Of a DNA stretch of 64,000 nt, positions 1 through 56,400 are shown in pieces. Under the pieces are notes generated by a model. The model was not told the DNA's origin and did not search any database. It was given only the letters and a program-made list of their open reading frames with translations. Position 1 is the stretch's first letter; every line of letters begins with the position of its first letter. The position numbers and the translations under genes are program-made. The DNA is from Owenia fusiformis (lineage: Eukaryota; Annelida; Polychaeta; Sabellida; Oweniidae). The stretch spans positions 9,199,555-9,263,554 of the forward strand of contig CAIIXF020000002.1 in assembly GCA_903813345.2 (NCBI GenBank). The letters are read 5' to 3'.

Positions 1-2128
1 TAGCTTAAGAATGTTAATAGAAATAGTTGCCAACCTATAGACGTTATGTTTACTATGTATATCTTGACGGAATGATTTGCCTGTGAGTGGATTTTTCGCA
101 TACTTTTCTAGGTCATCATTGAGTGTTTTCATTCCACGTTCTGCACCTATAGATACATTTGGAGTCTTAGATGGGGATTCTAATATGGAATGAACCTGTT
201 CATTGTATGCATTCCAAAGGGTTTCATCTCCTGTTATTAATTTTGAATTCATCAACACATCACCAAGACGGTAACCCTCTTTTAAAGCTGCATCAGTGAA
301 TTGGTATTTGGTCATTTCATCTATTGTCATTATAAGCTCTAGTGTAGGTGGTTTCTCAGGGTTCTTTCTTGATTTTCGTCCTATTGGTGTCTTACTAGCA
401 GATGGGTGTGTTCCATCAAATGAAACCCCACGTGTAGTCACTTTATCCCAAAAGTTCACGTCAGTCATATTAAGTGGCAGTCTGTCATTGAAATCGGTCA
501 ATACTGGTATGTCAAGATTGTTCAAAATGGTCTCACCTAAATTTAAAACTTGGAGATGCACATAATAGACAAGTATACGTAACTCTTCCTTTATCTGTTC
601 AACTGGCTGGCCCATTGGATCAAACAATATTGCCCACTCTATATCAGAGTAAGCAGTCACCTCCTTACGGGACAGTGATCCTAGTGCCATTATTGCAAAC
701 CTGTATTTACAATTTTGAATTCCTAGCACAGACATACAGTTTGTGATAATTGACCTATAAAATTCTAAAAGCTTTTCTGTGATCTCATTATAGAACACTT
801 TACTGTGTTCTATAGTGTTATCAATATCCTGTTCTTTCATTTCAGAAGTTTGTGGATGTACAATCATGTCATTGTTTATAATGGCATTCACAGTTTCTTC
901 AGAATAATTACGTATTTTCTCTAGGGCGTCTTTGTATTCTCTTGTCAATTCAGAAGTTGAAAATGTACTCTCTTTTGACAGTCTTTTGAGAAATTGTGCA
1001 TCAATCTTCTGAAGCTTTTGTTCAATATAGCTCTTGTCGTACTTAAATTTAGTATTCAGCAAACTCCATCTTCGCAACAGATCCTGTATATTTTTCAATG
1101 GCCGACTCTCTAATTTCTCGAGTCGACATTTTGCTGCGTTTAAAAGTGCTGAGGCCCAAACATAATGTTCATACCAGGTCGGAGATGTTTCAGCTGATCC
1201 TATAAACTCATCACCCAGTTCACACATTAGATCTGCCTGTTTCTTTAGTTCAGTTTCCTGGTCACAAGCTTTTATTTTACAACCAAGGTCATACATTTTC
1301 TGTGTGATCTCTGAAAGAGGATACAATGTAATAGATGATGAAGAAACAGGCATGTAGCCAGGGGGGTTCGCAGGGTTCGGGCGAATTCCCCCCCCCCCCC
1401 TGGGAAAATTATTTCAAAATCATGCAGTTTCTCACCATTTTGAGCACTTCTCAAGTGATTTTAGCCATATTTGGGCCAGAATTGTCAAATGTGAACCCCC
1501 CTTGGAAATTTTTGAAAACTGAGCCCCCCCCTTGGCAAATCCTGGCTACGGGCCTGAGAAACAACTGCGTTTCAAAGGATCAGATAAATGGTGACTTTTT
1601 ATTTTACAAAGGACCATATTGTAACTTCGGTTCTGTGGCACTATTTATATTTAGTAAGGACCAAATAAGCATACCTCTTGTATTTTCCCTTTGATCCTTG
1701 TATTGTGTTGATAAACATATGAGAGAAAGTTTATCTGACATATTTATTTAAACATTTGAACATAAATCAAAATGACCACTTGGTTCAAAATTCCTATTAT
1801 CTTTGCCTAAGCTTTGTATGGCAACTTGGGTCATGTTGGAAGGTAAAGATCAAAGATAAATTTTAAATGCTTACTAGATATTTATGACTGGTGAATTTGT
1901 TAAAAAGGCTCTAAAATTATTACCTGATTTTGATTGATTTGGCCCTGGATTCATTTCGATCCCTCCAATGACCAGCAACATTGTGATTATCACCAGCAAA
2001 GTTGTTGTTGTTTGCCCAGACTCGTCTGGGTCTGTTGAACATGCTGTACATCGTAACACAACAAATTTGAGTTGATTTCCACAAAAAGATCCAATCGCAG
2101 CTCTCCATTGGGTTAAACTGTTTCCCAT
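1..2128 (-). CDS. 2A-like leader plus nucleotidyltransferase-domain protein (partial, 3' end beyond window)
   Basis: Two coding exons read leftwards. Exon 1 (2128-1924) gives 68 codons plus one base, donor CAG|GTAATA; exon 2 (1310-1) starts after a CCTCTTTCAG acceptor, and the phases join exactly (G+AG = Glu69). Exon 2 then stays open for 436 codons to the window edge, so 505 residues are visible. Residues 1-43 contain WRAAIGSF; 44-56 are hydrophobic; 56-63 read GIEMNPGP, matching the 2A ribosome-skipping consensus D(V/I)ExNPGP except that Gly replaces Asp. Residues 109-132 look TPR-like. At 279-293, GS, ten residues, then D-I-E matches the nucleotidyltransferase pattern hG[GS]x(9-13)Dh[DE]h, most like GlnD/DUF294 domains; a conserved-looking VSFDGTHPSASKTPIGR follows at 364-380. 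2A leaders are known on sea urchin NLR proteins and on non-LTR retrotransposons. Catalytic activity, substrate and immune role are not shown. An out-of-frame ATG lies upstream at 2162. The gene structure is well supported; function is tentative. Confidence 0.78.
1347..1556 (+). mobile_element. C-rich TIR MITE, GGCCCGTAGCCAGG family, copy 1
   Basis: About 210 bp bounded by CAGGCATGTAGCCAGG on the left and CCTGGCTACGGGCCTG on the right, which are inverted repeats. It contains poly-C/poly-G runs and the family core (TTTCTCACCATTTTGAGCAC, then GTGATTTTAGCC). It lies in the single visible intron of the 2A-leader gene, with its left end about 35 bp from the exon 2 acceptor. The 119-residue ORF over it is spurious. 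Confidence 0.8.
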
Positions 2129-2249: not shown

Positions 2250-2321
2250 CTATTTGTGTATCATCAGTACAGAGAAAAATGTTTTGATCGCAGCTCTCCA
2301 TTTTTCTAAATTGTTTTCCAT
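2250..2321 (-). pseudogene. decayed second copy of the 2A-leader exon start
   Basis: Reading leftwards from an ATG at 2321 gives MENNLEKWRAAIKTF and then a stop at 2250-2252 (24 codons with stop). The upstream bases also match those before the real leader: both have GACAAAAATC close before CCAACATGG. The intact leader at 2128 begins MGNSLTQWRAAIGSF. The hydrophobic and NPGP parts are absent, so this looks like a truncated duplicate. The ~60 bp between the copies is a simple repeat of TTCATGTTGTTTCATG type. Confidence 0.6.
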
Positions 2322-53400: not shown

Positions 53401-56400
53401 TGTAGGGGGTGGGGGAATACTCTTTTAAATGTTTCATATTTGATTTACCTTTCTTTAAAGAGAGCATAATTATTCTCTTTAAAAAGGTTAATATCAGTTC
53501 TTTTTAAGGCAGAGGGTACAGGAGAAGCATTGCCCCATAGCCAGGGGTGGGGGGGGGGGGGTGTGAGAATTTGAGTTCAATAATCTTTCAAAGTCATGCA
53601 CCATTTTCACCATTCTGAACACTTTTCAAGTGATTTTGAGCCAAAGTTATCAAATGTGAACCCCCCTGGAATTTTTTCAGAAAGTGAACACCCCTTGGCA
53701 AAAGCTGGCTACAGGCCTGGATTTATGAATGGCACAATCTGTGGAATCTCCAAACTGCAAGAAAAAGAAGCTATACAGACAAATATTTGCAATAGACTCC
53801 AATGTAAATATTTATATAATATTGCAATTTTGCTTGGAGGTGCCACCCAGAAGATTTATGAGTTTGTCTACAGGTTGATTCCAAGAATCAGAAAGTATCT
53901 TATTAGTGGTCCCCAACTTATATAAAAGGCGTGTACTCTGGTTCTGTCTTAAGTGAAAATATGTAAATAATGGACTATACAACCAATGAGGTATTTATAT
54001 TATCACGAAATAAATAAAGTATTGCTCGCCAAAAATAATTTGATTGCAAATCTGAAATCCTGTTCTGCTACCAATCTGCTGGTTCAAGTCAAACTTGAAA
54101 TGAGTTTGCAAGATCTGTTTGTTGATGTACTGCCTGTCAGCAGCTACCCTCTGGCTCAAAAGCTAGCAATAATTCCTATCCTCTGACTAGGAATAAACAA
54201 TTTCATAATTTTGGTCCTGATAACATATCTTAATGATTCTGAAAGTAGCTGTCAGGATTTCCCAAAAGACTTTCAATATGATGCTTCATGATGTTTTTAC
54301 AATGCACATTTTCTCATCATGAATATGTGATTTCTCATAAAAACAATGTTTTCTCCAAGGAAAGCCCCCAGGATAAAAAAGCTTTGGAAAACTATAAATT
54401 AGGAACCCATCTTAACTCTGTTTTCAAAGTTGGACTGATTTTCTAAAAAGAGGACTTTTTCCTCCTCATTGAAGTACTGCCATATTACAGTTTTGATGGC
54501 AATAAGATCGTTAACTCTCAGTGGGTTTTTGAAATGCAGTCAAACTTTTGATAAAGAGTAAAGACACATGTGTTATCACAGATGTAAGCCAGTAACAAAA
54601 CCTGTCCAATTAGATCTCCTCAATAAAAAACATTCATGTAAACCAAAACATATTTTCATACTAGATATAAACAGGAGTTTAAACTTATTGACTTTAGCAA
54701 AATATTTTTTGGGGATAAATAATAAATCTGATAATTTTTGTTAAATCATACCCTTTTTGATATTTTTGAGAATATGTACTTAGTTTTTAATCCAGGCCCA
54801 AACTTAAAAACTGAAGTCCTCAGATAGCCCCTCCCCTCCCCCACTCCCCATGAGTCAAGCATGTGGCGAAAGGGAAAGGGTGGGATTTCAAGGTCAATGA
54901 CTGGGAGACATCAGGATCCCAGATCTGCAGAGGTCAACAGAGGTGCACTGGAATGTGTGCATGTATTCATTAGTTGATATATAGAAGTCTAGGATTTCAA
55001 GGTCAGTCACAATGGGGGGAAACCAGACCACATTCAGCTGGGGAAGCTGTTAGAGTTACAAGATTAGGAAACAAACAAAGCATCATGTTTCAATTTATGG
55101 AGCTGGATGTGCCCTGCTAAAGGGGTCTGCTCAAAGTGCTGGTAAATTCAGATGGGGATCAAAAGTGATCTAAAAATGGGCAACATATTTTTTTGAAGAC
55201 CTTCCCATTTTGAAGACTGCCTATTTTGACATATTGTTTTAAAATTGGGCTCACTTTGGCTAATTTTTTCAGAAACTGAAAAATGAGGCCTACTATATAT
55301 GGATAATTTTTGAAAATGAAACTTGTTTTTTTCATTAGGCTTTAAAAGCAGAGGACAAATAATAAAGCTAATGACAAACTCGGAGACTCATCTTTTGATA
55401 TACATGAAAAAACAGAGTTGACCATTCATTTGTTTATATGGTTAACCGTTTACCAAGTTTTCCATATTTTTTGTGGAAGGATGTTGATACCACTGGTTTA
55501 TATACTAGGACACCCATTGAAATATAGGTCAATGTGGTTCACTAAAAGACGTCATAGACCTAGCTAACTGTGGTTTATATAAAGCCTGGGGCACAGTGTT
55601 CCTGTCAACATGTTTCCATATTTCTCTTGCGCATTTCAGTTGGCTAATTGCATAATTGTCAATATTTTCGTGGAAAGAATGTTGATATGGCTGGTTTACA
55701 CACAAGTACATTATTCAAATTTACACACATGTACATTATTCAAGTTTACACACAAGTACATCATTCAAGTTTACACACAAGTACATTATTCAAGTTTACA
55801 CACAAGTACATTATTCAAGTTTACACACAAGTACATTATTCAAGTTTACACACAAGTACATTATACAAGTTTACACACAAGTACATTATTCAAGTTTACA
55901 CACAAGTACATTATTCAAGTTTACACACAAGTACATTATTCAAGTTTACACACAAGTACATTATTCAAGTTTACACACAAGTACATTATTCAAGTTTACA
56001 CACAAGTACATTATTCAAGTTTACACACAAGTATATTATTCAAGTTTACTCACAAGTGCATGTACATTATTCTAGTTTACACACAAGTACATTATTCAAG
56101 TTTACACACAAGCATATTATTCAAGTTTACCCACAAGTACATGTACATTATTCTAGTTTACACACAAGTACATTATTCAAGTTTACACACAAGTACATTA
56201 TTCAAGTTTACACACAAGTATATTATTCAAGTTTACTCACAAGTGCATGTACATTATTCTAGTTTACACACAAGTACATTATTCAAGTTTACACACAAGT
56301 ATATTATTCAAGTTTAACCACAAGTACATGTACATTATTCTAGTTTACACACAAGTACATTATTCAAGTCAGCATGATTCAGTACAAAGACGTCACTGAA

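Follow-up and report, generated by a model that had tools for sequence, protein, structure and literature searches.

Sequences of the StopGo (2A) type are described as rare in cellular genes in PMC12846837. The cellular case cited in the literature is that of the NLRs of Strongylocentrotus purpuratus, in which 26-aa leaders with D[V/I]ExNPGP precede NACHT/LRR proteins (Roulston et al. 2016, PMC4981915), and 2A leaders on gene families are thus already known. That paper also reports 2A-like sequences in LINEs of this sea urchin, and 2A sequences in non-LTR retrotransposons have reportedly been described by Odon et al. (2013). For RNA viruses, PMC12846837 reports G at position 12 (p12) in 1,207 of 1,557 near-matches, lists L-rich G-type 2A sequences as a known active class, and gives (A/G/S)G at p12 as the end of the L-rich motif 5. 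It further states that an H14 variant kept more than 95% activity and that D12A and N16A abolish the activity of FMDV 2A, with G at p12 lying outside those FMDV tests.

Here we describe a putative 2A leader in the annelid Owenia fusiformis, found in a window of 64,000 nt (the whole stretch of DNA analysed). On the minus strand, a frame opens with an ATG at 2128, and its peptide starts MGNSLTQWRAAIGSF and ends TTTTLLVIITMLLVIGGIEMNPGPNQSKS at 1924, where a phase-1 donor (CAG|GTAATA, 1924/1923) follows. The acceptor ctctttcag|AGATCACACAG lies at 1311/1310, and the 205 nt of the leader together with the 1310 nt of exon 2 give 505 codons open to the window edge. Such a phase-fitting leader exon had been proposed in the first-pass annotation, and its coordinates, phase and frame came out the same when re-read. 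We treat the leader exon as part of one predicted gene with the exon that starts at 1310 and encodes a nucleotidyltransferase (NT), the splice being deduced from the sequence. The window leader contains a StopGo core, [D/G/C/N][V/I]ExNPGP, in the form GIEMNPGP, and the L-rich upstream context described for such elements in PMC12846837 was recognised by eye as LLVIITMLLVIG in the window and as other L-rich forms in paralogues. No known Pfam domain was matched by the window leader at the cut-offs.

Table 1 Features of the predicted gene in the window, with positions counted from the first letter of the window.
Feature	Position	Strand	Remarks
Leader exon	1924..2128	minus	68 codons + 1 nt, encodes MGNSLTQWRAAIGSFCGNQLKFVVLRCTACSTDPDESGQTTTTLLVIITMLLVIGGIEMNPGPNQSKS; 56 homologous leaders in genome
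Intron 1	1311..1923	minus	613 nt, phase 1; homologous phase-matched sites in 25/25 pairs
Exon 2 up to window edge	1..1310	minus	Helical region + NT domain; TPR array beyond window
Conserved leader N-terminus MGNSLTQWRAAIGSF	2084..2128	minus	dN/dS 0.25 in first 16 codons; motif also in LINE ORFs
Hydrophobic stretch LLVIITMLLVIG, before 2A core	1964..1999	minus	19-aa hydropathy 2.02
2A/StopGo core GIEMNPGP, p12-p19	1940..1963	minus	Predicted skip between last G and P
NT active-site motif GSLSRKEVTAYSDIE (GSx10DxE)	637..681	minus	Kept in paralogues and 7 bacterial segments
Degenerate second leader start MENNLEKWRAAIKTF	2277..2321	minus	~190 nt upstream of leader ATG; profile scan

A genome search with the leader peptide gave 63 matches, all free of internal stops. 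Six of these were LINE places and one leader was listed as two pieces, which left 56 leaders. The NT region gave 80 genome pieces that merged into 75 genes, comprising 65 core genes (at least 41% identity) and 10 distant ones (26-38%). Of the 56 leaders, 52 were followed on their own strand by an NT gene no more than 60 kb away, each by a different one; the distance was within 10 kb for 40 leaders and within 3 kb for 28, against chance expectations of 0.21 (60 kb), 0.04 (10 kb) and 0.013 (3 kb) from 200,000 random positions on 12 large contigs. Leaders and NT genes were separated by a median of 2.5 kb (242 nt to 59 kb), and because this implies introns of up to 59 kb, confidence is lower for the widely spaced pairs. 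Within 60 kb, the closest NT gene was the downstream one for 49 of the 56 leaders and a same-strand upstream one for 3, and the remaining 4 had none. Conversely, a leader was found within 60 kb upstream of 53 of the 65 core NT genes and of none of the 10 distant ones. For three of the 12 core genes without a leader in that range (L082-L084), inspection by eye of the upstream 3.0-3.7 kb revealed no NPGP ORF of at least 45 aa. It should be noted that the paralogues are related and do not represent independent evidence.

Splice sites followed the same arrangement. A phase-matched acceptor occurred at the homologous place in all leader/NT pairs read at both ends, and by a simple pyrimidine score it was the top candidate in 24 of the 25. 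Among 53 leaders, 50 had a phase-1 site as their top-scoring donor; a phase-1 GT was also present in the other three (weak in L034) and in three off-pattern leaders. The 53 leaders, on which all motif and hydropathy counts are based, were selected by a pattern that included MG, QWR, V/I at p13 and [N/D]PGP; L041, L058 and L060 fell outside it and were read by eye, and L048 had been dropped before counting as a repeat of L007.

The leaders share an MG..QWR.AIG.F start and a G[I/V]ExNPGP end, and in the 53 the stretch from the start through NPGP is 54-215 aa long. In these, p11 was G or A and p12 was always G, and p14 was E in 46, Q in 6 and H in 1; p16, which the pattern restricted to N or D, was N in 52 and D in 1. 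Over all 56 fetched leaders, N16 was present in 55 and PGP at p17-p19 in every one, and G[I/V]ExNPGP was intact in 47, the other nine differing at p13, p14 or p16. Off the pattern, L041 has HWR, L060 has QYR with L at p13, and L058 has lost its start codon and is probably dead. Back-translated GIExNPGP had 20 sites in the 498 Mb searched compared with 1 for the reversed pattern, and GVExNPGP had 33 compared with 0. Of these 53 sites, 47 were in the 56 leaders, three in LINEs (L096-L098) and three on C11 (two in L027, one in L095).

Substitution rates were estimated by the Nei-Gojobori method (custom script) from 26 hand-chosen pairs, of which 17 were pooled with each leader used once. The pooled dN/dS was 0.39 overall, 0.59 in the linker and 0.10 in the last 23 codons, with the first 16 codons in between (Table 1). 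All 26 pairs, which overlap, had dN/dS below 1, and the window leader gave 0.14-0.26 with two close paralogues. The linkage, the phase-matched splice sites, the shared motif and the dN/dS of 0.10 together indicate a genuine exon that is both translated and conserved.

Beyond the window, the frame of exon 2 (L009) extends to 1147 codons including the stop, with an NT region of ~560 aa followed by a TPR array; the end of the frame resembles read-through into an intron. The repeats are KLC/NPHP3-like, and TPR_12 was matched with 373 bits. Also outside the window, near-identical 42-residue TPR units recur across several exons (L009, 980-7600), a sign of recent array turnover. In an alignment of the NT domains of 21 of the 75 genes, G210, E216, S221, D222, E224, E259 and T260 were identical in all 21 and S211 was present in at least 90%; G210, S211, S221, D222 and E224 were all present in 7 bacterial segments as well. 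With G210, S211, D222 and E224, the domains fit the catalytic motif GSx10-11[D/E]x[D/E] of GlnE/DrrA/DUF294 nucleotidyltransferases. DUF294 was matched by the window protein with 20.2 bits, below the Pfam cut-off of 21, and by all 21 aligned paralogues at E <= 0.1 (best 5.1e-11), and SidM_N, the DrrA domain, was matched by 10 of the 21 (best 1.2e-6). A profile search of PDB sequences placed DrrA first (E 5.4e-4 and 1e-3). An AlphaFold2 model of the 436 residues in the window, built with the 7 bacterial segments, had a pLDDT of 70.8 and a pTM of 0.75. A fold search with it retrieved DrrA (E 5.8e-4) and E. coli GlnE (E 1.7e-3) with probability 1.0, at low TM-scores (0.28-0.32 of the query) and 11-14% identity.

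A GlnD/DUF294-like NT had been suggested in the first-pass annotation, with TPR among the domains to be looked for. NT and TPR are both present, and the label can be refined, since the nearest relatives of known structure are protein adenylyltransferases of the GlnE/DrrA type. PMC3710099 places GlnD/GlnE, DUF294_C and DrrA in one group. The DUF294 and SidM_N profiles and the DrrA and GlnE folds favour an adenylyltransferase, and on the model and profiles the NT domain is probably a protein adenylyltransferase of this type. The family thus has in common with GlnE and DrrA (SidM) the GSx10DxE motif, the two profiles and the top fold matches; it differs in that a TPR array follows the NT domain and in being known from sequence and a model. 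Membership of the NLR family was rejected for the exon 2 and NT domains scanned, as NACHT and LRR were absent among the 22 families matched by exon 2 and among those of the NT domains.

The same NT-then-TPR order, with KLC-like TPRs, was found in five bacterial loci (L087, L089, L091, L092 and L093; Chlamydiae MAGs and an alphaproteobacterial MAG) at 23-28% identity. Unlike the family here, the bacterial ORFs examined showed no noticeable NPGP leader. The proteins of L087, L089 and L091 end in a Cys-rich tail that resembles a CAAX prenylation box, and that of L092 also carries ankyrin repeats. In a tree built from 21 NT domains together with 4 from chlamydiae, which has four long branches, 15 of the 16 leader-labelled rows formed one clade (99/98); one label, that of L077, refers to a leader that sits behind another NT gene. 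The sixteenth row (C4:607759) fell at the unresolved base beside the leaderless L084. The tree requires two changes, so that either one gain and one loss of the leader, or two gains, would account for it.

An exon for an OTU protease lies between leader and NT in 14 of the 52 genes. There were 18 OTU-exon matches, of which 15 were inside these 14 intervals, one stood behind a C11 leader that lacks an NT gene, and two had no leader; two OTU exons joined by hand reached 32.6 bits (cut-off 23.3). Three loci (L026, L050 and L052) have more than one copy each of a helical unit of ~110 residues in exons between OTU and NT, and the three units scanned matched no Pfam family above the cut-off. On C11, a phase-1 exon with GVELNPGP (L095, C11:27966453) stands 2.9 kb before a TPR-coiled coil-MATH exon, a single case, and 16 kb from it is a leader with two tandem GIEKNPGP cores (L027, C11:27982685-27982749). 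Both have a phase-1 GT and are possible 2A leaders on a TRAF-like gene.

Related leaders also open non-LTR ORFs of the same genome, and LINEs and host genes therefore have a leader module in common, which may have passed in either direction. In L014 and L015 the ORF starts MGDSLTQWRSAIGRF, reaches NDVHPNPGP and continues into an endonuclease, and in L016 and L017 (the latter fetched over 1.2 kb only) ORF1 starts MGISVEQWRACIGVG and reaches GDVEMNPGP; L013, L097 and L098 carry more diverged leaders. Pfam was run on L015 and on L016 ORF1 only, with endonuclease domains in L015, and the other LINEs were recognised by eye. Between the ORF1 leader and a host leader there was a match at E 2.2e-4. 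Profiles built from 13 host leaders and 4 LINE leaders aligned over 24 N-terminal columns with a probability of 98.6%, and each of the 4 LINE starts outscored 200,000 shuffles on a host-only profile. The LINE leader as query hit at least 99 places in the genome. None of the 73 GD[V/I/M]ExNPGP sites was in a host leader, and the 13 that were checked were all LINE-like, four as fetched loci (L016, L017, L099 and L100) and nine by overlap with LINE-leader matches. Judging from the site counts, p12 separates the two sets well but imperfectly: all host leaders have G and most of the LINE sites examined D, but L096-L098 have G.

This arrangement, with an own ATG and an N-terminal NPGP leader on a cellular protein of an expanded family, resembles that of the sea-urchin NLRs (PMC4981915). 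The leaders here differ in their length, in the MG..QWR.AIG.F start, in G at p12, in occupying an exon of their own and in the NT-TPR body. The presence of 2A in LINEs of both animals is a further likeness. As reported for the retrotransposons of Odon et al. (2013), LINEs of this genome have an NPGP leader before an endonuclease or ORF1 body, whereas the host leaders are predicted separate exons spliced to NT or OTU. The host leaders also resemble motif 5 of PMC12846837 in the L-rich stretch, G/A then G at p12, and [I/V]ExNPGP; that motif is described there for RNA viruses, whereas here it occurs in animal genes, including Q14 variants. Our literature search found no 2A leader on NT-TPR or OTU proteins, and an earlier report (Rao et al. 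2025, Cell Rep) is possible.

The DNA itself shows an exon with phase-1 splice sites that stands before 52 genes, selection on the 2A end of this exon, and intact enzyme motifs. Taking these with the data in PMC12846837 and PMC4981915, StopGo skipping is the likeliest function of the leader, and we consider it probable that the leader is both the first coding exon of a large NT-TPR family and a StopGo (2A) element. That the leader is no more than a relic of a retrotransposon next to the gene, or a small gene in its own right, is extremely improbable: LINE ORFs of this genome do begin with a related leader, but the co-linearity of 52 leaders with NT genes, the agreement of splice phases, the selection on the 2A end and the distribution of the GD-type sites argue against it, and the LINE ORFs examined run into coiled-coil or endonuclease with no leader exon end. 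Behind the window leader there is a splice donor and then the NT exon, with no endonuclease or reverse transcriptase, and exon 2 holds NT and TPR only. The first-pass annotation had assigned the leader to the NT gene and not to a stray retrotransposon, an assignment borne out by the linkage in 52 genes and the strong purifying selection on the 2A end. Its alternative, a leader confined to a retrotransposon ORF, did not hold, and the sharp opposition of retrotransposon and host gene has to be softened, as related leaders occur in both.

The same annotation supposed that the leader decides between a secreted and a cytosolic protein. As a main purpose, such dual targeting, with incomplete skipping splitting the product into a secreted or membrane form that keeps the leader and a cytosolic one, is a real possibility, if on the whole doubtful. 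Judged by hydropathy, 35 of the 53 leaders reach 1.6 over 19 residues, including that of the window, in which the 18 residues before p12 are all uncharged, and the sea-urchin NLR leaders offer a precedent (PMC4981915). However, 18 of the 53 stay below 1.6 (down to 0.38) and 11 have at least four charged residues in the 18 before p12, and yet NPGP is near-invariant; separation is therefore the more general function and dual targeting at most a trait of a subgroup. The hydrophobic part of the window leader also lies at least 40 residues from the start codon, compared with whole sea-urchin leaders of 26 residues, and the NT-TPR body has no evident extracellular role. An ordinary signal-anchor or membrane leader, in which NPGP would be inactive in translation, would fit the hydrophobic stretch in about two-thirds of the leaders, but it is the 2A end and not the hydrophobicity that is best conserved, and G-type ExNPGP occurs far above the reversed-pattern control; we regard it as improbable. 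The leader peptide could instead be a product of its own, so that one mRNA yields a small conserved peptide together with an equal number of NT-TPR molecules, with MG..QWR.AIG.F as a functional part. This is plausible in outline and unlikely on the evidence: the first 16 codons are constrained despite their distance from the 2A core and the motif is retained at LINE ORF starts, but the window leader lacks a Pfam match and the motif may serve only skipping or initiation. N-myristoylation was not supported as a general leader trait, because 46 of the 53 carry Q, E or D at position 6.

If the leader is a StopGo element, a ribosome at ...GIEMNPG would fail to join Gly to the next Pro, the 62-residue leader peptide would be released, and the ribosome would continue. 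Most NT-TPR protein would then begin with Pro and be cytosolic, and an unseparated share would retain the leader and, where this is hydrophobic as in the window, may enter the ER/membrane route. The body is probably a protein nucleotidylyltransferase of the adenylyltransferase type whose TPR part serves as sensor or scaffold, and the family an expanded one of immune type. The leader and the starts of the local non-LTR ORFs probably have a common origin. An innate-immunity role of the family is proposed by analogy. Residue p14 is Q or H in seven leaders and p16 is D in one, and N16A and D12A inactivate FMDV 2A (PMC12846837), so that some copies may skip poorly or not at all; the Q14 and D16 leaders may be the weaker ones. 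A wider scenario is speculative, with some plausibility: a LINE-shared StopGo module was fixed early on AMPylase-like NT-TPR receptors and kept through about fifty duplications, with E14Q/H and N16D tuning skipping. Each mRNA would give a leader peptide and a cytosolic NT sensor, the translation state under stress or infection would set the amount or form of the sensor, and OTU members, perhaps with the TPR-MATH gene, would use the same device.

If correct, this would be a second expanded family with 2A leaders, with another enzyme core, a longer leader in its own exon, a G-type motif and a LINE-shared start, and ribosome skipping would be more widely used by animals. The 56 natural variants offer material for learning what sets skipping efficiency, and the animals would possess a GlnE/DrrA-like enzyme family whose NT-TPR order is shared with intracellular bacteria.

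Elsewhere in the window, long open frames on the plus strand (55583-56317) are built of a short tandem repeat and are probably not a gene. The degenerate second leader start (Table 1) is a single copy with no function implied, compared with the tandem arrays on C8, where partial leader starts precede the full leader at 34412054-34413725, 34263716-34264465 and 34589502-34589781. Upstream of C8:34413775, the copies are spaced at 163 nt.
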